Source of the DNA: Bhargavaea sp. CC-171006 | GTDB taxonomy: Bacteria > Bacillota > Bacilli > Bacillales_A > Planococcaceae | Direction: 5' to 3' | Length of the DNA stretch: 64,000 nt | Assembly (NCBI RefSeq): GCF_009761675.1 | Contig: NZ_QUZH01000023.1 | Location: 248,001 to 312,000 of the forward strand | Part shown: piece after piece, positions 11,347 to 31,066 of the stretch | Layout of the letters: every line of letters begins with the position of its first letter | How positions within the stretch are numbered: position 1 is the first letter of the stretch | The notes under the pieces: model-generated | Seen by the model: the letters and a program-made list of their open reading frames with translations, nothing else | Databases searched by the model: none | What the model was told of the DNA's origin: nothing | Program-made: the position numbers and the translations under genes

Positions 11347-12309
11347 TCACTCCCGGTGACTGCTTGCTTCGTATGCTTCGATGATCCGCGCTACGAGCGG
11401 ATGACGTACGACATCCGCCTGCTCGAAGTGCAGGAAGCGGATCCCCTGGACCTCTTTCAGGATCCGCTGGGCGACTATCAATCCTGATTCCGTCCCACGG
11501 GGCAAGTCGATCTGGGTCTGGTCACCCGTGATCACCATCTTCGAACCGAAACCGAGCCGTGTCATGAACATCTTCATCTGTGCCTTTGTCGTGTTCTGCG
11601 CCTCATCGAGAATGACAAAAGCATCATCCAGCGTCCGTCCGCGCATATAGGCGAGCGGCGCGATTTCAATGGTGCCCCGCTCGATCAGCCGCTCTGTCTG
11701 TTCCGGCCCGAGCACATCATGGAGGGAGTCATACAGCGGCCTCAGATACGGATCAACCTTTTCTTTAAGGTCACCTGGCAGAAAGCCGAGGTTTTCCCCT
11801 GCTTCCACCGCCGGGCGGGTCAGGATGATCCGCTTGACCTGTCCATTTTTCAATGCCTGCACGGCCATGACGACCGCAAGATAAGTTTTCCCGGTACCGG
11901 CCGGGCCGATTCCGAACACCATATCTTCGGCACGGATGGCATGGACATATTCCCGCTGCCCGATCGTCTTTGCACGGATGGCCTTGCCTTTGGCATTCCT
12001 TGCGATCTCTTCGTCGTATAGCTCTGCGAAGTATTCGATCGTGCCGTTCTTGGCCATCTCCAGGGCGGTCGACACATCACGAAGGTTAATGTTGATCCCT
12101 TTGCGAATGACCCGCAGCAGCTGGCTGAGGAGCTCCTGGGCGGTTCCACGCGGCTCCTCATCACCCTGAATCACGATGACGCCCCCTCGCGTGAGCACCC
12201 GCACACCGAGTTCTTCCTCGATCAGTTTCATGTTCTGGTCGGAGATGCCGAGCAGCATCACCGCCTCATTTGGATCTTCCACATGCAGTTGTACCGTGTT
12301 TTCTTCCAA
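11347..12309 (-). CDS. phoH: PhoH family ATPase
   Basis: 320 aa P-loop ATPase with a KH-like N-terminus (VRVLTRGGVIVIQGD). Walker A is GPAGTGKT near residue 137 and Walker B is VILDEAQN. The family is linked to RNA metabolism and ribosome maturation, and it is regularly found beside ybeY as here. The start is TTG 12309 with AAGGAG nine bases upstream. That ribosome binding site overlaps the end of yqfD, which stops 4 bp away. Confidence 0.95.
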   Translation of the reverse strand: MEENTVQLHVEDPNEAVMLLGISDQNMKLIEEELGVRVLTRGGVIVIQGDEEPRGTAQELLSQLLRVIRKGININLRDVSTALEMAKNGTIEYFAELYDEEIARNAKGKAIRAKTIGQREYVHAIRAEDMVFGIGPAGTGKTYLAVVMAVQALKNGQVKRIILTRPAVEAGENLGFLPGDLKEKVDPYLRPLYDSLHDVLGPEQTERLIERGTIEIAPLAYMRGRTLDDAFVILDEAQNTTKAQMKMFMTRLGFGSKMVITGDQTQIDLPRGTESGLIVAQRILKEVQGIRFLHFEQADVVRHPLVARIIEAYEASSHRE

Positions 12310-12313
12310 TCGA

Positions 12314-13438
12314 TCAATCTCCTTGGGAAATCTGTTTTCTTACGGCAATATTTTCATTTATGAGAAATAATACGGTCCCCTTTACTTTATCATTATCATA
12401 ATGCACTCGCAAAACTTTTTCATCCTTTACAGTCGCATCGGGATCAAGTGTTCCCAGCAATTTTTCCTTCAGGACGCCAAGGATGACCCTTTCCCCGTTT
12501 TCCTCTGTGATCCTCACCTCTCTCGCCGTGCCGTCACGGCTTTCCGACAGCTTCAGGAAGGAATCGAAAACAGCGGGAAGCGGGACCTCGCGCCAGGCGT
12601 CCCCTTCAGGCACATTGTTGCCGACCGACAGCCGGTATGCCCGTTCCCCGGGTGCTGAATACCTGATGACTGCCGGCATCTCAAAGCGGGTTTCGACATA
12701 ATAGTCTCCGTACACTTTCCCTTCCGCGCCGGTCACATAGCTGTCTTCCCTCTGTGTGACAATTCCGGAGGCGACGATGTCCCCCTTTTCCACAGTCGTA
12801 TTCGGGAGGACATTCCGGACACCGCTGGAAAGTTCAAAGCGGGTGATGACCGCGCGCTTTGATGCTGCAAGATGTGCCGGAGGCAGTTTTTTCTCCGCGT
12901 CTACACCAGTCTCAGGAGCCTCGATCGGATGGACGGTCAGGCGGCCACCTTCACGACTGACGCGGACCCAGCTAAGACCCGGGTCGGCGACCATCAAATC
13001 ATTGCGGATTTGGGACTCGTCAGGAACAGCGCCGATTGGAATAAACGGCCTGATCCCGTTTTTTTCGAGATAGGCACTGATCCGTTCCTGTCGCTCAGGC
13101 TTGCCGCCTTCCACCCCAACCGACCAGATCAGTCCGGAGCAGGCCAGGGGCGCAAGCAGGAAAAGCAGGACGGCAATCACGCGGACGGGGGACAGATCCA
13201 GGATCACCCCGTCCCGTCCTGCCTGCAGTCCGAGGCGCACACGATATTTCCGTCTCATTTTCCGCAGCGCGGGCATGTCCTTCCGCATCACGGAGAACCT
13301 GAGCTGTTCCCCGTCACGCCCGGCATTTCTCAGGCGGATGCCGGATGCGGCGCAAGCCGAGAAAAAGGCATCAGCCCCGCTTCCGGTTACCGTGAGCCAG
13401 ACAGTTTCCCGCCCGCGCAGCCGCTTACCCGTCTGCAT
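12314..13438 (-). CDS. yqfD: Sporulation protein YqfD
   Basis: 374 aa. The N-terminal half is cytoplasmic, one membrane segment spans about residues 88-110 (VIAVLLFLLAPLACSGLIW), and an extracellular beta-rich domain follows. YqfD is a mother-cell protein of the sigma-E regulon, related to the outer-forespore-membrane proteins, and is needed for full sporulation in B. subtilis. Its ATG lies 14 nt inside yqfC, so the pair is translationally coupled. Confidence 0.92.
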   Translation of the reverse strand: MQTGKRLRGRETVWLTVTGSGADAFFSACAASGIRLRNAGRDGEQLRFSVMRKDMPALRKMRRKYRVRLGLQAGRDGVILDLSPVRVIAVLLFLLAPLACSGLIWSVGVEGGKPERQERISAYLEKNGIRPFIPIGAVPDESQIRNDLMVADPGLSWVRVSREGGRLTVHPIEAPETGVDAEKKLPPAHLAASKRAVITRFELSSGVRNVLPNTTVEKGDIVASGIVTQREDSYVTGAEGKVYGDYYVETRFEMPAVIRYSAPGERAYRLSVGNNVPEGDAWREVPLPAVFDSFLKLSESRDGTAREVRITEENGERVILGVLKEKLLGTLDPDATVKDEKVLRVHYDNDKVKGTVLFLINENIAVRKQISQGD

Positions 13439-13673
13439 GGTCCCTCGTACGGATCAATGTCAGCCGGTCCAACCGGTCAAATGTGATCAGTGCCGCCTCG
13501 TCGCCGATCTCCTCGACCTTTACCTCTTCTCCCTCAAGAGTCATCGCATAGGGCGCAAGGCGAAGACTGACTGCACGCTCGCCGATCTTTCCGATAGTGA
13601 ATTTTCCATTGAGCCGCAATGTCTGATGATCCTCGATTTCTAGAAAAGGGACCATCCTGAAAAATCTGCGCAT
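13425..13673 (-). CDS. yqfC: Sporulation protein YqfC (YabP family)
   Basis: 82 aa, similar in size to B. subtilis YqfC. The YabP/YqfC fold is seen in FLEIEDHQTLRLNGK and VSLRLAPYAMTLEG. It belongs to the sigma-E mother-cell regulon. Its ribosome binding site AAGGGGGG is part of the 3' arm of a terminator-like hairpin immediately upstream. This arrangement is discussed as a separate finding. Confidence 0.9.
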   Translation of the reverse strand: MRRFFRMVPFLEIEDHQTLRLNGKFTIGKIGERAVSLRLAPYAMTLEGEEVKVEEIGDEAALITFDRLDRLTLIRTRDHADG

Positions 13674-13674
13674 A

Positions 13675-13720
13675 CAAAAACCCCCCTTGGCCTTCAGTTT
13701 ATGACAGGCCGAGGGGGGTC
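13675..13720 (-). terminator. Terminator hairpin after the 13.7 kb anchored-protein gene, overlapping the yqfC ribosome binding site
   Basis: On the minus strand ACCCCCCTCGGCC (13720-13708) pairs with GGCCAAGGGGGGT, closing a 13-15 nt loop and followed by TTTTTG. The T-run ends one or two bases before the yqfC ATG. The 3' arm is the only Shine-Dalgarno sequence for yqfC. Confidence 0.85.
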
Positions 13721-13724
13721 ATTC
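13696..13724 (-). promoter_or_regulatory. Candidate sigma-E promoter for yqfCD
   Basis: CATAAACT (13696-13703, minus strand) matches the sigma-E -10 consensus CATACAMT at seven of eight positions. GAATGAC sits 14 bp upstream (13718-13724) and matches four of seven -35 positions. yqfCD is sigma-E-dependent in B. subtilis. The start site would be near 13688, inside the 3' arm of the hairpin. Confidence 0.5.
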
Positions 13725-13741
13725 ACACCGGCTGTAGCCGG

Positions 13742-14260
13742 TTATCTTCTCTTCGCTTTTGGCGGGCCGAGAATTTCCGCAAACACGATTGCACGTGCAA
13801 GTTCTTCTTCGGATTCCGGGAATAGAGAATCAGGATCTGCCGGTTCAGGTTTTCTTGAAACCGGAACTGGCGCTGCGGTCGGACGCATGCGTTCACGCGT
13901 GCGTTCCTGGCGCTCCTGACGCTCTCCTCGCTTGGCTGCGGGAGCCGATTCACGGGCCCTGCCGGCGTCGTTTTCCGCATTCCGCCGTGTGCTCCGCACG
14001 GGCTCGGGCTTCGCCGTGTTTGAATCCGCTTCGCGAGGGTCCGTGCGGAATTCCTTTGCCTCTTTCTGAATCTCTTTTTGAAGATCTTCATATAGCTGCT
14101 TTGTCAGGTCCTTCAGATTTCCTCCCTGCGCAGCGGGCCGCTTGGGAACTTCCTGACGGGGAGCCTGATTCGGCTTTTGTGCCGGAGGCTTCTGGTTTTC
14201 CTTGCCCTTGAACAGGGTGCCGATTATCAGTGAGATGATCAGCAGGATGATCGGTTCCAT
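13742..14260 (-). CDS. Uncharacterised N-terminally anchored, highly charged protein
   Basis: 172 aa, not recognised. It starts with one hydrophobic segment (EPIILLIISLIIGTLF, residues 2-17). A long polar, low-complexity linker rich in K, R, E, P and Q follows. The last segment is short and better-structured (ESEEELARAIVFAEILGPPK). AGGGGAT precedes the ATG. It follows floA by 29 bp and is therefore probably co-transcribed with the nfeD-floA membrane-microdomain pair. B. subtilis has the short gene yqfB here, but no clear similarity is seen. A membrane-tethered adaptor is one possibility; this is inference only. Confidence 0.75.
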   Translation of the reverse strand: MEPIILLIISLIIGTLFKGKENQKPPAQKPNQAPRQEVPKRPAAQGGNLKDLTKQLYEDLQKEIQKEAKEFRTDPREADSNTAKPEPVRSTRRNAENDAGRARESAPAAKRGERQERQERTRERMRPTAAPVPVSRKPEPADPDSLFPESEEELARAIVFAEILGPPKAKRR

Positions 14261-14289
14261 CAGCTCATCCCCTTTCCATCATCCGCGGG

Positions 14290-15291
14290 TCATTCCTGGC
14301 CGTCGGGGCGTTTGTCCTGCTCCTTGCCCATCTTGCCGAGAGTTTCACGCATGGAGGTATCTGCCTGGATGTTCTTGTAATTCACGTAATCCATGATGCC
14401 GATGTTGCCCGTCCGGAGCGCTTCTGCCATGGCAAGCGGTACTTCCGCCTCTGCCTCGACAACCTTGGCGCGCATTTCGCCGACTTTCGCGCGCATTTCC
14501 TGCTCGCTGGCGACTGCCATCGCGCGGCGCTCTTCGGCTTTCGCCTGAGCAATCTTCTTGTCTGCTTCCGCCTGCTCTGTCTGAAGCTCGGCACCGATGT
14601 TCTTGCCGATATCCACATCTGCGATATCGATCGACAGGATCTCAAATGCCGTGCCGGCATCCAGTCCTTTTGATAGGACGGTCTGGGAGATCATATCCGG
14701 ATTCTCAAGAACGACAGTATGGTGCTTGGAGGAACCGATGGTCGAAACGATCCCTTCGCCGACACGGGCAACGATCGTCTCTTCGCCGGCACCCCCTACT
14801 AGCCGGTCGATGTTGGCACGTACCGTGATGCGGGATTTTGCCTTGACTTCAATCCCGTTCATTGCCACACCGGCGATAAACGGCGTTTCAATGACTTTCG
14901 GGTTGACGGACATGCTGACAGCTTCAAGCACATCACGGCCTGCCAGATCGATCGCAGCCGCACGTTCGAAAGTTAGTGGGATATTCGCGCGGTGAGCCGC
15001 GATCAGGGCATTGACAACGCGGTCAACGTTACCGCCGGCGAGATAATGGCTCTCCAGCTGGTTGATACCCACTTCGAGCCCCGCCTTGTGGGCCTTGATG
15101 AGCGGGTTGACGATCCTGCTCGGAATTACCCGGCGGAGACGCATCCCGATCAGTGTGAAGATGCTGACTTTAACACCGGCTGCAAGCGCGGAAATCCACA
15201 GCGTGACCGGCACAAATGTAAAGAAGACAGACAGGGCGACGATCACCAGAAATGCGACGATAATCAGCCCGATTGTTCCCAATCCAAGCAT
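14290..15291 (-). CDS. floA: Flotillin-like protein FloA
   Basis: 333 aa SPFH-domain scaffold of functional membrane microdomains. An N-terminal membrane-inserted region (about 4-50) precedes the SPFH core. An Ala/Glu-rich coiled coil ([20 protein letters not shown]) and a short tail follow. It lies 12 bp after nfeD, with which FloA proteins are typically paired. GGAGGAA precedes the ATG. Confidence 0.96.
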
Positions 15292-15303
15292 TCTGTTTCC
15301 TCC

Positions 15304-16626
15304 TTATTCTTCGGAAGCTTCCCGGACAACGATCCTGGATCCTTCCACTTTCGTAATCTTAACATTTTGGTCTTTCCCGATGAATCTGCCTTCCGAGACG
15401 ACATCCAGGTATTCCCCGTCAATTTCTGCCGTTCCGGAAGGACGGAGCGGTGTCACTGTTCTGGCCGTCCGGCCAATCAGTTCAAGCCGGTTGGCATTTG
15501 ATACATAGCCGCTTTCGGTGTCAGTGGCGTCCCTCAGGACGATGCGGTTAAGCAGATGGAGCCGTTTGCCAAAGAATTTCATCATGATCACCATTCCTAA
15601 TATCGTGATGACCAGTGCCGTGATGACGGAAATGGCCATCCAGGCCGGGTCGGCCCCTGCCAAGATGATGCCCGCTACCATCGCCACAGCACCAAGGATG
15701 CCCAGGATGCCCCCCGGTACGAACAGCTCGGCAATAAGCAGCCCTATGCCTGCCAGGAACAGCAGCAGCGATTCATAGCCGGCAAGTCCCGCTACAAGAT
15801 GTCCGTAGAAGAACAGGAGCAGTGCCCCGGCACCCATCGACCCCGGTATTCCGAATCCCGGTGAATACAATTCCACGACAAGCCCAAGCCCCGCAATCGA
15901 CAGCAGAATCGGAACGACGACCGGATTCGTGATGAACCGCGCCAGTTTTTCACTGAACGTCTCATTCATCTTAACGACTTCCGCACCTTCAAGCCCTGTG
16001 GTTGCCAGCAGTTCGGCAAAGGATGACACGGTTCCTTCGCTATAATTGACTTTCATTGCTTCGTCGGCAGAAAGTGTCAGAAGTTTTCCTTCCCCCGCGC
16101 GGTACTCCGGCAAATCGATTGATGCATCAGCCATGGCAAGTGCATAAATCGGATCCCGATCCTGGTCAGACGATTCTGCTGCAGCCTTCATGGAAGCGAG
16201 CCATGCGCTGTTGGCTTTGTCATCGGCAGCGTTTCCGGACTGGTCAATCACCTGTGCCGCGCCGATCCGGCCGTTCGGATGCATATAGATTTCGTCCGCA
16301 TGCAGCGCAAGGAATGCACCCGCAGACAGGGCATCGCGGTTGATATACGCAATCGTACGGAGTTCGGTCTCATCCATCAGCTTGGCGATCCGGCCTGCGG
16401 CATCCACGAATCCTCCCGGTGTATTGATCTCCAGGATAATCGTATCGGCACCGGCCTTTTCGGCTTCGCCGAATGAGCGGTCAAGGAACTCATACAATCC
16501 CCGTTCGACTTCATTTTCCAATGGCACGTGGTAAACTTTGCCGCTATCCGCTCCGGCATGTGGAATCGCCATGAGGAACAGGGCGGCAAACAGAAGGAGG
16601 CCGCGGATCAAGCGGATTCCTTTCAA
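15304..16626 (-). CDS. nfeD: NfeD family protein (ClpP-like serine protease domain plus NfeD domain)
   Basis: 440 aa from TTG 16626, preceded by GGGGGTGA. The longer reading frame upstream of this TTG runs through the promoter and is not used. A signal peptide spans about residues 1-28. The SppA/ClpP-type domain has INTPGGFVDAAG and the probable catalytic serine in RDALSAGAFLALHADEIYMH. Four to five membrane helices (about 215-350) and a C-terminal OB-type NfeD domain follow. It is equivalent to B. subtilis YqeZ, partner of FloA, in the sigma-W cell-envelope stress regulon. Confidence 0.93.
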   Translation of the reverse strand: MKGIRLIRGLLLFAALFLMAIPHAGADSGKVYHVPLENEVERGLYEFLDRSFGEAEKAGADTIILEINTPGGFVDAAGRIAKLMDETELRTIAYINRDALSAGAFLALHADEIYMHPNGRIGAAQVIDQSGNAADDKANSAWLASMKAAAESSDQDRDPIYALAMADASIDLPEYRAGEGKLLTLSADEAMKVNYSEGTVSSFAELLATTGLEGAEVVKMNETFSEKLARFITNPVVVPILLSIAGLGLVVELYSPGFGIPGSMGAGALLLFFYGHLVAGLAGYESLLLFLAGIGLLIAELFVPGGILGILGAVAMVAGIILAGADPAWMAISVITALVITILGMVIMMKFFGKRLHLLNRIVLRDATDTESGYVSNANRLELIGRTARTVTPLRPSGTAEIDGEYLDVVSEGRFIGKDQNVKITKVEGSRIVVREASEE

Positions 16627-16667
16627 GTCTTCACCCCCATTCGTCTCTCGTCCATTATAGGTGATTA

Positions 16668-16694
16668 TACGGATGAACGAAGCAAAAAGTTTCA
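16668..16694 (-). promoter_or_regulatory. Sigma-W-type (ECF) promoter for nfeD-floA
   Basis: On the minus strand TGAAAC (16689-16694) is followed after 17 bp by CGTA (16668-16671), continuing TAAT. TGAAAC and CGTA are the sigma-W consensus elements, and the B. subtilis yqeZ-floA operon is under sigma-W. The usual spacer is 16 bp, one shorter than here. Confidence 0.75.
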
Positions 16695-16707
16695 TTTAAA
16701 ATGAAAT

Positions 16708-16740
16708 AAACCGGAAAACCCCTACGGGATTTTCCGGTTT
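16708..16740 (-). terminator. Terminator after rpsU
   Basis: The perfect arms AAACCGGAAAA and TTTTCCGGTTT have an inner CCC/GGG pairing. It lies 58 bp past the rpsU stop and just upstream of the nfeD promoter. Confidence 0.8.
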
Positions 16741-16797
16741 TGCATACATATTCTGATTCAGGCCATTCCTGTTATGGACGAGGGATGGTGAGGGGGA

Positions 16798-16971
16798 TTA
16801 GTATTTGCGCTTGCGGGCAGCTTCGGACTTTTTCTTCCGCTTAATGCTTGGCTTCTCATAGAACTCGCGTTTACGGGCCTCTTGGATTGTGCCCGATTTG
16901 GAAACACCACGTTTGAAGCGGCGAAGAGCATCTTCAAGCGATTCGTTTTTACGAACGACAGTTTTTGTCAT
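16798..16971 (-). CDS. rpsU: 30S ribosomal protein S21
   Basis: 57 aa, highly basic, identical in length to B. subtilis S21 ([20 protein letters not shown] ... [14 protein letters not shown]). The ATG at 16971 is preceded by GGAGGGAGGGG. It has its own strong promoter and a terminator, so it is a monocistronic unit. Confidence 0.97.
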
Positions 16972-17031
16972 GACTTTTCCCCTCCCTCCGTACGCACTTC
17001 CATACATGAAAAACACATCATGTACTCAGAA

Positions 17032-17060
17032 ATTATAGCCTAATTCCTGGTGCGGGTCAA
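17032..17060 (-). promoter_or_regulatory. Strong sigma-A promoter for rpsU
   Basis: TTGACC (17055-17060), 17 bp, TATAAT (17032-17037) on the minus strand. This is an 11 of 12 match with ideal spacing, giving a leader of about 55 nt. Confidence 0.85.
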
Positions 17061-17102
17061 TATATATCTTTTAATTTCGCATATGTGGTTTTCAGAAAAT
17101 GA

Positions 17103-17774
17103 TCAGTAATCTTCAGATGAAGTGAGTCCTTGCATGATTTTGACGCCGGAGCTGGCCCCGATCCTTGTAGCCCCGGCTTTAACCATTGCCTGCACGTCCT
17201 CCAGGCTGCGGACGCCGCCGGAAGCCTTCACGCCCATCTCTTCGCCGACTGTCAGGCGCATCAGCGCGACATCTTCGACTGTGGCCCCTCCCGTCGAGAA
17301 TCCTGTAGATGTCTTCACGAAGTCTGCGCCAGCCTGCTTGGCCAGGCGGCAAGCGATGATTTTCTCATCATCTGTCAGCAGGCAGGTCTCGATGATGACT
17401 TTGACGATTGCCTTTCCCGCGGCCGCCTCCACGACTGCGCGGATGTCCGCTTCGACGGTTTCTTCATCGCCGCTTTTCAGTGCGCCGATATTGACCACCA
17501 TATCGATTTCCTGCGCGCCTTTTTCGATGGCATCTTTTGTTTCGAAAGCTTTTGTCTCTTTCGTGCCGGCGCCGAGCGGGAAGCCGATGACGGTGCAGAC
17601 TTTCACTTCAGATCCCGACAGTTCGGATGCCGCAGTCTCAACCCAGTATGGATTCACGCAGACCGAGGCGAACCGGTACTCTCTCGCCTCGCTGCAAAGT
17701 TTCACGATCTGTTCTTTCGTAACTTCCGGCTTCAGAAGTGTATGGTCGATCATTGATGCGACATTGATGCTCAT
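17103..17774 (-). CDS. deoC: Deoxyribose-phosphate aldolase
   Basis: 223 aa. It cleaves 2-deoxyribose-5-phosphate to glyceraldehyde-3-phosphate and acetaldehyde in deoxynucleoside salvage. The Schiff-base lysine is in DFVKTSTGF and the second active-site lysine in [19 protein letters not shown] precedes the ATG. Here it sits between mtaB and rpsU and not in a dra-nupC-pdp cluster as in B. subtilis. Confidence 0.96.
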
Positions 17775-29109: not shown

Positions 29110-29928
29110 TCAACCTCCGGCGATCACTTCGGCTGCAGCTTTTGCGACAATGGCCGCTGTCCGGTTCAGTTCTTCCTCTGTATTTTCCGTTCCGCCCATC
29201 TCAATCAGGAGCACGTTCGGGCCGAGGTCCTGGTTATAGATGCCGTCGACACCATGTCCGCTTTTCCTGAAAATCCCCTTTGAAATGCCGGGTACCAGTT
29301 CGTTCATCTTTCCCGAGATCTTCTCTGCCAATTGCCTGTTTGCCTCGTGGCCCCCATGATCTTCCCCGATGACGAAGTACACTTTGGCATACGGCCCGTC
29401 CGTATGCTCCAGTGTCGTCTTGTTCCTCCCGAGGGAATCCCTATGCACATCCAGTACAAGGTCATAGGCACCTGCCTGCATCTGTTTTTGGACCTGGGGA
29501 CGGATTGCCTTATAGGCACGGCTATGCGGCACGCCATTCTGGCTCATCTTGCCGGCATTGTCGTAGTTCAGAACATCAAGCTGGATGCCATTCATTCCGA
29601 AATGGGAACTGAATGCTTCACCGAGGTTCATAATATTCTCCTTGCTATGCGAGACGGCGGCCTTCCCTTCTTTTGCACGCAGAATCGGTGCAAACGCCTC
29701 ATGGGAATGGGTGAAGTACATCAGTGCCCGTCCTGCCCCCCCCGTTTCCGCCGGTTTCCCGTCCTCCTCCACCTCAAAGTCGAACAGATTGGCGGCATAG
29801 ACCAGTCTGCCCGATTCCGTGGCGGCCTCTCGGACATCCGTTTGCAGGCCGGGGATCTTGACCGTGATGAACGGCATGAGGAACAGGAATAGGATCAGCC
29901 ACGTATAGAACTGCCATTTTTTCTTCAT
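29110..29928 (-). CDS. spoIIP: Stage II sporulation protein P (SpoIIP)
   Basis: 272 aa. One N-terminal membrane anchor (about 7-25) is followed by the SpoIIP amidase/endopeptidase domain. Conserved metal and catalytic positions are visible in [28 protein letters not shown] and IEMGGTENT. With SpoIID and SpoIIM it degrades septal peptidoglycan to drive engulfment. It is much shorter than B. subtilis SpoIIP (about 400 aa) because the linker between anchor and catalytic domain is cut down. ATG 29928 is used; a TTG codon directly precedes it. yqxA, which separates lepA and spoIIP in B. subtilis, is absent. Confidence 0.93.
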
Positions 29929-29942
29929 CAAAAGAATCCCCC

Positions 29943-29964
29943 CTCCCGCACTATATGGCGGGAG
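29943..29964 (-). promoter_or_regulatory. Hairpin with a sigma-E-like -10 in its loop, upstream of spoIIP
   Basis: The 7-bp arms CTCCCGC and GCGGGAG enclose exactly CATATAGT (minus strand), which fits the sigma-E -10 pattern CATANNNT. The gpr stop codon TAG lies in the loop. The 3' arm runs into the G-rich ribosome binding region of spoIIP. No convincing -35 was found. Confidence 0.4.
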
Positions 29965-31006
29965 CAGGGGATTCAGAACCCGGCGTTGCGGGCGACAGCC
30001 ATTTTACAACGCCGGACGATACGAGAGTTGCATACTGCAGGATCCACGTATCCGTCTCCTTAGGCGTGACAAACATGCTCTGCTCATCCGACGAAAGCAC
30101 TTCCTCAAACAGCTTCTGCTTGTCTTCCTTCGACCATTGGGACCACTCACCGAAAATCGGCTTCAGAACCTTTTTGTCGGTTTCTTTTGTTTTGTCATGA
30201 AGCCATGGCGTGACTGCCAGTGCCGAGGAGGGAGAGTTTTTTTCTTCTATTTTTGCGGCGATATAGTTGAACACCGATTCGATTGCGTCGGACACCATGA
30301 CCGGACCGTCCACAACCGTCGGGACACCGATTGCAGTCACCGGGATTCCAAGCACTTCCTTTGAAATCTCTTTCCGTTCATTGCCGACACCGGATCCCGG
30401 ATGGATTCCCGTGTCCGTCAGCTGGATGGTCCGGCAAAGACGCGTGCTGTCTCTTGCTGCCAGTGCATCAATGACAATGATCAGGTCGGGACTGATTTTA
30501 GATGCCAGTGCATTCACAAAATCACTGGTCTCGAATCCTGTCTGGCCGGTTACTCCCGCCGCGTAGGCGATCAGCCCGGGGTCTTCCGAATAAAATGCCG
30601 GGACGGCCTCCTGGAGGCGGTCGATCGCATACGGGCCGACTGCGTCAGGCGTGACTGAGCGGTTGCCGAGACCGACGACAAGAACTTTTGGATTTTCCGG
30701 CAGGCCGAGAGGTGCATGCATCTCCCGCAATTTGTCGGCCAGCAGCTGTTCCAATTCCACGAAGCCTTCTGAATCATCTGCAGTCAGACCCGGTGCGGTA
30801 AGGGTAATGTAGGTGCCCGACTTTCTGCCGATTTTCTCGGCACCCTGATCATCCACCCGAATTTCTGTAACGATAAATCGTCCTTTTCGCTTTTCCCGAA
30901 AGTCAATGCCACTGGATTCTTTTAGTTTTTCCTTGTCCTTTTCGGTACGGTGCCTGACCATTTCATCTGTTTCGTCAAGCAGGTCCGTCCTGCCGAATTG
31001 CATCAT
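29951..31006 (-). CDS. gpr: Germination protease GPR
   Basis: 351 aa spore protease (peptidase family A25) that degrades small acid-soluble proteins at germination. Features include VVGLGNRSVTPDAVGP, IVIDALAARDSTRLCRTIQL, DTGIHPGSGVGNERKEI and TVVDGPVMVSDAI. ATG 31006 is selected because GGAGGTGA lies six bases upstream. GPR is made as a zymogen cleaved near the N-terminus. It is divergent from rpsT and followed by spoIIP across the hairpin. Confidence 0.96.
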   Translation of the reverse strand: MMQFGRTDLLDETDEMVRHRTEKDKEKLKESSGIDFREKRKGRFIVTEIRVDDQGAEKIGRKSGTYITLTAPGLTADDSEGFVELEQLLADKLREMHAPLGLPENPKVLVVGLGNRSVTPDAVGPYAIDRLQEAVPAFYSEDPGLIAYAAGVTGQTGFETSDFVNALASKISPDLIIVIDALAARDSTRLCRTIQLTDTGIHPGSGVGNERKEISKEVLGIPVTAIGVPTVVDGPVMVSDAIESVFNYIAAKIEEKNSPSSALAVTPWLHDKTKETDKKVLKPIFGEWSQWSKEDKQKLFEEVLSSDEQSMFVTPKETDTWILQYATLVSSGVVKWLSPATPGSESPAPAI

Positions 31007-31066
31007 GTCACTCACCTCCAAATCAGTATGTCCATGTGTCAAGGGAATATTCTTTGCGTTTCATGA

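Follow-up and report, generated by a model that had tools for sequence, protein, structure and literature searches.

The window analysed here, a stretch of 64,000 nucleotides from Bhargavaea sp. CC-171006, carries on its minus strand the gene order nfeD1b, floA, yqfB-like, yqfC, yqfD, phoH and an HD-domain gene (yqfF by position). The nfeD1b-type gene (15304–16695, start uncertain) was assigned by the Pfam families NfeD1b_N, NfeD_membrane and NfeD, and floA (14290–15291) by NF010186 and PF12127. By comparison with the sigma-W promoter consensus, the motif TGAAAC ... CGTA at 16668–16694 was assigned as a sigma-W-like promoter of an nfeD-floA-yqfB operon; the listed nfeD start is probably wrong, since its ATG overlaps this promoter. 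The yqfB-like gene (13742–14260) follows floA in 101 of 101 genomes examined, and its product matched no Pfam or NCBIfam family. The same holds for the YqfC protein, and yqfC (13425–13673) was therefore identified by its position between yqfB and yqfD and by a profile built from relatives, while yqfD (12314–13438) was found by TIGR02876 (below cut-off) and PF06898 (above cut-off). All of nfeD, floA and yqfB share the strand of yqfC, and their operon is, judging by the promoter motif, the likely source of the read-through RNA from the floA side that a first-pass annotation of this DNA had proposed. For B. subtilis, the part of the published report on which we draw describes a terminator after yqfB as well as measured sigma-W read-through into yqfC-yqfD (PMC3498285), which fits this proposal.

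Between yqfB and yqfC lies a gap of 68 bases, which in RNA sense ends in GAATGACCCCCCTCGGCCTGTCATAAACTGAAGGCCAAGGGGGGTTTTTGT followed by the ATG (13673). The element found here reads GAATGACCCCCCTCGGCCTGTCATAAACTGAAGGCCAAGGGGGGTTTTTGTATG on the minus strand, to which all of its features belong. Folding yields a terminator hairpin at 13679–13720 with a 5' arm at 13702–13720 and a 3' arm at 13679–13696, and its G+C-rich stem runs immediately into a U-tract (13676–13680), as in intrinsic terminators; this tract doubles as part of the spacer between the Shine-Dalgarno (SD) sequence and the start codon. The fold reaches −32.3 kcal/mol over 85 nt, with 2 of 200 shuffled sequences equally stable, and a shorter stretch, folded as plus strand, was equalled by 0 of 200. 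At the end of the 3' arm, AAGGGGGG is the sole SD-like sequence visible before the yqfC ATG, its core AGGGGG occupying 13682–13687, so that the ribosome binding site is placed as a lock on read-through RNA would have it. A hairpin with the only yqfC SD in its 3' arm had already been recognized in the first-pass annotation, whose longer span (13675–13720) adds the U-tract. The same annotation had placed a sigma-E-like −10 in the loop. The −10-like CATAAACT (13696–13703, its CATA conserved in 82 of 82 relatives) is indeed present, with five bases in the loop and three in apical pairs; because of the latter it sits at the hairpin tip and not wholly in the loop. Absent from the earlier description is a −35-like GAATGAC (13718–13724), read directly and found again in relatives. 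It lies exactly 14 nt 5' of the CATA of the −10, and the 5' arm of the hairpin therefore occupies the promoter spacer. This placement of −35 and −10 implies a predicted RNA start 3' of the 5' arm, probably at 13688, 8 nt past the −10. An Rfam search of the window from 12000 to 17500 returned 0 matches at E up to 1.

A single site of this kind is weak evidence, and we accept the element because its conservation carries it. Matches to floA were obtained in 199 of 200 genomes; among the matches listed, 101 from 18 genera were taken and searched with profiles made from the YqfC and YqfD proteins of the window. Both genes were detected in the same 82 genomes (yqfD as 83 frames) and were missing from 19 genomes of five genera (g6, g7, g8, g9 and g12). 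A hairpin enclosing CATA precedes yqfC in all 82 yqfC-bearing genomes; 78 pass a strict test for hairpin plus U-tract, and the four failures still have at least 13 enclosing pairs. The first-pass annotation had made its reading depend on conservation of the −10 in the loop among relatives, and on this point it held. The motif CATANNNT is found at the −10 in 80 of the 82 genomes and N[AC]AT exactly 14 nt 5' of CATA in 77, i.e., with the fixed spacing expected of a sigma-E promoter; the five exceptions are four genomes of genus g2 and L123. The combined pattern N[AC]AT-N17-CATANNNT occurs 82 times on the sense strand in 221,154 bases from the 101 genomes, and 76 of these occurrences fall at the yqfC site. 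In an alignment of 58 distinct sequences (g2 omitted), the invariant columns are the AT of the −35 and CATA, while the arms vary. The hairpin also stays with yqfC in g13, g15 and L116, where yqfC is 135–1183 bases away from yqfB; three of these loci have strong separate terminators (−20 to −26 kcal/mol) and the weakest hairpins, about −11.6 kcal/mol.

A terminator with CATA in its loop could in principle arise by chance, and one site alone would be unremarkable: locus L355 of the same genome is a strong terminator with a CATA loop and no visible gene after it. Such a coincidence is nevertheless extremely improbable as an account of CATA within the hairpin in 82 of 82 genomes, with the exact 14-nt spacing in 77. 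Moreover, the 19 genomes lacking yqfC have different yqfB terminators, and the promoter pattern occurs in one of them, namely as TAATGAG-N14-CATACGGA within the yqfB terminator of L045. This pattern without yqfC counts against the reading of a promoter built into a terminator that we favour below. A second yqfC-less genome, L085, has CATA in a hairpin without a −35. The g2 genomes (L039, L054, L057 and L058) keep the yqfC hairpin with another −35 (GTCTAAA, GTCTAGA). Their yqfD is fragmented in three of four genomes, spoIIP is interrupted in two and was not found in two, and spoIVA, examined in three, is broken in two and whole in one, so that g2 looks like a lineage losing sporulation. It provides no clean negative control, since its −35 resembles that of the spoIIP type.

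Regarding the sigma factor, the consensus for the sigma-E −35 is KMATATT, with which GAATGAC agrees at four positions only; CATAAACT conforms to the sigma-E −10 motif CATANNNT. The ATA core described for the sigma-E −35 (PMC3789822, as far as the part of that paper used here goes) is not present in the window sequence, which lacks the final A, and this position is G in 66 of 77 relatives and A in only 3. The missing A weighs less because spoIVA, a known sigma-E gene, likewise shows CATGAA in several genera of the window's family. Read from the DNA alone, the yqfC promoter is thus sigma-E-like with a variant −35, a label chosen because the AT is kept in place but the next A is rare. The genome has a sigma-E gene, detected at 340.9 bits and hence slightly below the cut-off of 348.6. 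For spacing, a partially consulted source gives an optimum of 12 ± 1 between the 8-bp and 10-bp elements of sigma-E promoters (PMC517825), which is compatible with 14 between the 7-mer and CATA.

Reading by sigma-K, which would share the CATA −10, was considered as well. The sigma-K −10 motif is CATANNNTA, but A follows CATANNNT in only 18 of the 82 genomes. According to the portion of PMC3789822 we rely on, sigma-E and sigma-K have closely similar −10 motifs, which speaks for the idea; the same source gives an upstream AC for sigma-K, however, and the invariant upstream bases here are the AT of N[AC]AT. In the sections of the literature drawn on here, yqfC-yqfD of B. subtilis are under sigma-E and required for the cortex (PMC517825, PMC4703394), with SpoIIID acting as their repressor (PMC517825), and in C. 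difficile they are likewise controlled by sigma-E (PMC3789822). A listed sporulation efficiency of 0 for the B. subtilis yqfD mutant and of 72.9 for the yqfC mutant has been published (PMC4703394). On account of the upstream AT and the rarity of A after CATANNNT, sigma-K was rejected as main reader of the promoter, and such a role appears highly unlikely.

Alternatively, the hairpin could be controlled by translation of a leader ORF of 7 codons, running from an ATG in the −35 to a stop in the −10, as in a leader-peptide attenuator. An ATG is present in 67 of the 82 genomes, and 33 of these 67 have an in-frame TAA or TAG, but the other 34, spread over eight genera, are without a stop, 15 of the 82 are without the ATG, and no peptide is conserved, since its codons are those of the variable arm. 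With stops and ATGs missing and codons variable, the attenuator was rejected and can be regarded as exceedingly improbable.

The first-pass annotation had asked whether −10 and arms co-vary in an alignment of the gap across relatives. The promoter positions proved invariant and the arms covary. Since the pairing register shifts between genera, covariation was assessed by arm swaps. The 61 distinct native hairpins have a mean of −22.6 kcal/mol; 3300 between-genus swaps of the 5' arm lower stability to a mean of −12.1 kcal/mol, and 118 of them are as stable as native. When the 5' arm was shuffled, the median z was −4.56; in 57 of 61 hairpins, no more than 2 of 200 shuffled versions were equally stable. 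Because stability is lost upon swapping and shuffling, the pairing looks selected on top of the fixed promoter. In the corresponding test with shuffled spacers, the median z was −4.24 for yqfC in the window's family (n = 78) and −0.84 for the spoIVA control (n = 24, from 24 of 26 loci with a scorable promoter).

For the SD, computation agrees with the first-pass proposal that the ribosome binding site is hidden in read-through RNA and exposed in an RNA starting near 13688: in this genome, the predicted cost of opening it is 16.3 kcal/mol in read-through RNA vs. 2.5 kcal/mol in the short RNA, modelled as starting 15 nt after the C of CATA. The mean for read-through RNA across 78 genomes is 15.6 kcal/mol. 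For the short RNA it is 3.0 kcal/mol, a mean that covers only the 48 genomes whose SD starts at or after the assumed start, and the cost is below that of read-through RNA in 48 of 48. The SD precedes the assumed start in 30 of the 78 genomes (18 of them g3), where either the true start lies at least 1 base earlier or the SD is partly cut. The short RNA is still structured, the SD being predicted to form G-U pairs with early codons, at shuffle level.

We therefore favour, with a probability of roughly 0.78, the view that a promoter for sigma-E, the mother-cell sigma factor, is embedded in an intrinsic terminator and that the 3' arm of this terminator serves as the SD of yqfC. Polymerase that arrives from the sigma-W-type nfeD-floA-yqfB operon would transcribe both arms; hairpin and U-tract would stop most of these RNAs, and any read-through RNA would keep its SD paired and hence remain untranslated. 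During sporulation, sigma-E polymerase would bind −35 and −10 as DNA and start within the 3' arm near 13688, giving an mRNA without the 5' arm that begins almost at the SD (leader of about 15 nt) and would be translated. For Bhargavaea sp. CC-171006 we infer the use of sigma-E, the start site, termination and the translational block from these features, and yqfC would presumably be silent in growing cells. If true, one 45-base stretch combines terminator, promoter and translational gate.

The distribution of the layout also shows a dependence on the upstream neighbour. A set of 107 yqfC loci from the same class but other families was compared (L169, too short, was omitted from the promoter reading): 23 have promoter and terminator merged (3 with a further terminator), 68 a separate terminator only, 14 neither, and 2 lack CATA. 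The merged loci belong to f10 (1/1), f12 (1/1), f14 (6/7), f29 (3/3), f33 (3/3), f37 (5/5), f44 (1/1) and f51 (1/1); one f3 and one f35 locus also scored as merged, doubtfully and probably by chance, and these two families are not counted. In f14, f33, f37 and f44 the −35 is of a different kind (GTGCTAGA, GTGTTAGA). Outside these eight families there are 85 loci; in 49 of them N[AC]AT stands precisely 14 nt 5' of CATA, frequently as TCATAAA or TCATATT, and the spacers of these 49 show no pairing tendency (median z −0.02). Separate terminators were found at 67 of the 85; in the scan, 67 of 83 sequences passed vs. 3 of 24 stretches taken 300–600 bases further upstream and 4 of 83 shuffled sequences. 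As these families keep the spacing without spacer pairing and have separate terminators, the promoter seems to be the older and more widespread part, and its fusion with a terminator a trait of certain lineages.

A contig scan with YqfC protein alignment of named genomes, limited to the best 80 of 486 loci, covered the Bacillaceae-type genera Metabacillus, Cytobacillus, Neobacillus, Heyndrickxia, Niallia and others. Among these best 80 of 486, 73 passed the strict test for the merged layout (75 by a looser count), nine of the 73 having another terminator-like hairpin within 300 bases. With floA at most 1.5 kb upstream, 65 of 66 of these loci are merged, the one exception being L289 (Bacillus timonensis), which has a separate terminator 3' of yqfB. 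Without floA, 8 of 14 are still merged, which, like the nine loci with a second hairpin, counts against our reading. At L245 and L279, the opposite strand carries a large serine recombinase gene (Pfam Recombinase and Resolvase) immediately upstream; L247 has a partial recombinase and L261 a possible fragment (both by eye), and the junction sequence of L286 equals that of L279. The loci at such recombinase junctions have lost the 5' arm and retain loop and 3' arm, and L245, L279, L286 and L288 have a better −35 (ACATATA) at 14 nt. Based on the floA-bearing merged loci and the recombinase junctions, the 5' arm appears to persist where read-through from upstream is to be expected and to have been lost in many cases elsewhere, as apparently in most loci without the upstream operon.

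As a separate observation, L245, L247, L261, L279 and L286 (positions 1–1500) apparently carry integrative elements inserted into the yqfC promoter hairpin, which recall the elements known to interrupt sporulation genes.

A second element of the same layout, not contained in the first-pass annotation, which also did not include the presence of the layout in many other genera, lies 5' of spoIIP (29110–29928, minus strand; TIGR02867 and PF07454). The element covers 29935–29973 on the minus strand (up to 29978 in a wider delimitation) and comprises a hairpin with the −10 CATATAGT at the tip (29950–29957), the SD in the 3' arm and, in this genus, a U-tract. Upstream lies gpr (29951–31042, minus strand; TIGR01441 and PF03418), a forespore gene in B. 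subtilis, whose stop codon TAG falls within the spoIIP −10. SpoIIP was matched in 42 of 61 genomes, and 30 loci from 11 genera were examined. At 28 of these, a hairpin (−8.8 to −28.7 kcal/mol) encloses CATA and carries the SD in its 3' arm; the remaining two, judged by eye, have CGTA instead. At 14 nt there is mostly a −35 of the GTTCTA kind. At least four T near the stem end were found at the 5 loci of genus g1 and, scattered, at 1 of the 23 others scored, and since the SD hairpin is thus conserved mostly without a U-tract, occlusion of the SD is separable from termination. In the window's family (30 loci) the spacer-shuffle median z is −2.32; other families reach only −1.09 (28 of 30 loci with a promoter), and their hairpin is consequently weak on average. 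In these other families, a first scoring detected no CATA close to the start at 2 of 30 loci and only doubtful ones at 5; a wider search found C[AG]TA preceded at 14 nt by TTCTA, GTCTA or TTCTG in 28 of 30. Control of SpoIIP by sigma-E is stated in the part of PMC12700454 used here.

These spoIIP data bear on the simplest alternative, a plain terminator next to a promoter, in which the SD overlap would arise merely because promoter, terminator and SD are packed into some 50 bases. Stem and U-tract in 78 of 82 genomes, the terminator reported after yqfB in B. subtilis (PMC3498285, consulted in part) and the fact that merged layout and separate terminator rarely coexist would all agree with it. 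Packing a terminator hardly explains, however, why the −10 is enclosed by a hairpin whose 3' arm contains the SD at 30 of 30 spoIIP loci (28 scored, 2 by eye), where runs of at least four T are confined to the five g1 loci and one other and the spacers still pair better than shuffled ones. We thus consider a plain terminator unlikely, though clearly less so than the other alternatives, and retain the promoter within an SD-hiding terminator as preferred reading.

The pattern CATANNNT, short gap, GGNGG and T-run occurs at four distinct places in the whole genome (reversed pattern: 0): at yqfC, at spoIIP, at a gene beside ispG and at one place without a hairpin. The third (L308, approximately 1470–1530), on the same contig some 13 kb ahead of the first window position, reads GCATAAA-N14-CATAGAAT with CCCCC/GGGGG arms and a T-run, and precedes a small gene adjoining ispG, which we take by position to be yqfZ-like and which matched no Pfam or NCBIfam family. 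A wider pattern gave six further distinct sites in this genome. L350 has N[AC]AT at 14 nt, inside an open frame and with a weak fold (−8.7 kcal/mol); L352 has CATAAGAT and a weak SD hairpin (−14.4 kcal/mol) without a −35 at 14 nt, before a ylmC-like frame directly after sigG; L355, mentioned above, has no listed co-directional frame starting close 3'; and L351, L353 and L356 showed no SD hairpin around CATA. Across 121 genomes, CATANNNT-gap-GGNGG-TTTT, with overlapping matches counted repeatedly, gave among the first 67 rows listed 547 matches vs. 307 reversed in genera with yqfC (45 genomes), 102 vs. 99 in genera without yqfC (15 genomes), 24 vs. 5 in g2 (4 genomes) and 14 vs. 29 in g16 (3 genomes). 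This excess, from which few sites were inspected individually, favours more such sites in sporulators.

The elements may hence represent a general compartment-fidelity device for mother-cell genes located behind genes of other sigma factors: a −10 at the tip of an SD-hiding hairpin would allow translation only of sigma-E-born RNA, with a U-tract the hairpin would act as terminator too, and the device would be gained and lost with the neighbour. Here, yqfC follows a sigma-W-type operon, spoIIP the forespore gene gpr, and the yqfZ-like gene lies beside ispG. We regard this generalization as evenly balanced. If true, it would account for the silence of sporulation genes in the wrong cell when they lie behind growth-phase or forespore genes, even though read-through has been measured, and would offer a sequence-based rule for telling which of them require protection, with merged, separate and element-interrupted loci as natural variants.

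The principle of a later promoter yielding an RNA without the occluding strand is established for T4 gene e, has been described for I-TevI and has been proposed for B. subtilis sigG, as described in the sections of the reports drawn on here. The B. subtilis yqeZ-yqfA-yqfB/yqfC-yqfD junction shares the yqfB terminator, sigma-E control and sigma-W read-through with our locus, a comparison made by published description and not by sequence, as no locus in our set is named B. subtilis. At B. subtilis sigG (spoIIIG), a hairpin of 20+ base pairs is proposed to block translation of spoIIGA-sigE read-through RNA and cannot form in RNA started at PsigG (PMC5942855), i.e., the same logic within the same developmental process. 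In contrast to the sigma-E genes yqfC and spoIIP, sigG is a forespore gene with a sigma-F/sigma-G promoter, and the part of the report consulted describes its hairpin neither as a terminator nor as bearing a tip −10. In phage T4, long early transcripts of gene e and of I-TevI/segB/mobE conceal the ribosome binding site, and late promoters give transcripts without the 5' strand, with an approximately 100-fold effect for e (PMC3014915, PMC2988022). These are phage late promoters for which the excerpts mention no terminator function, whereas yqfC is a chromosomal developmental gene. A partial literature search yielded no description of the yqfC/spoIIP element, nor of a tip −10, the double use as terminator or neighbour-linked gain and loss.

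A minor observation concerns the yqfC start codon in g4 (13 genomes), which is apparently ATA in 5 and ATC in 2 (L042, L046, L049, L050, L064, L087 and L115), with normal SD spacing.
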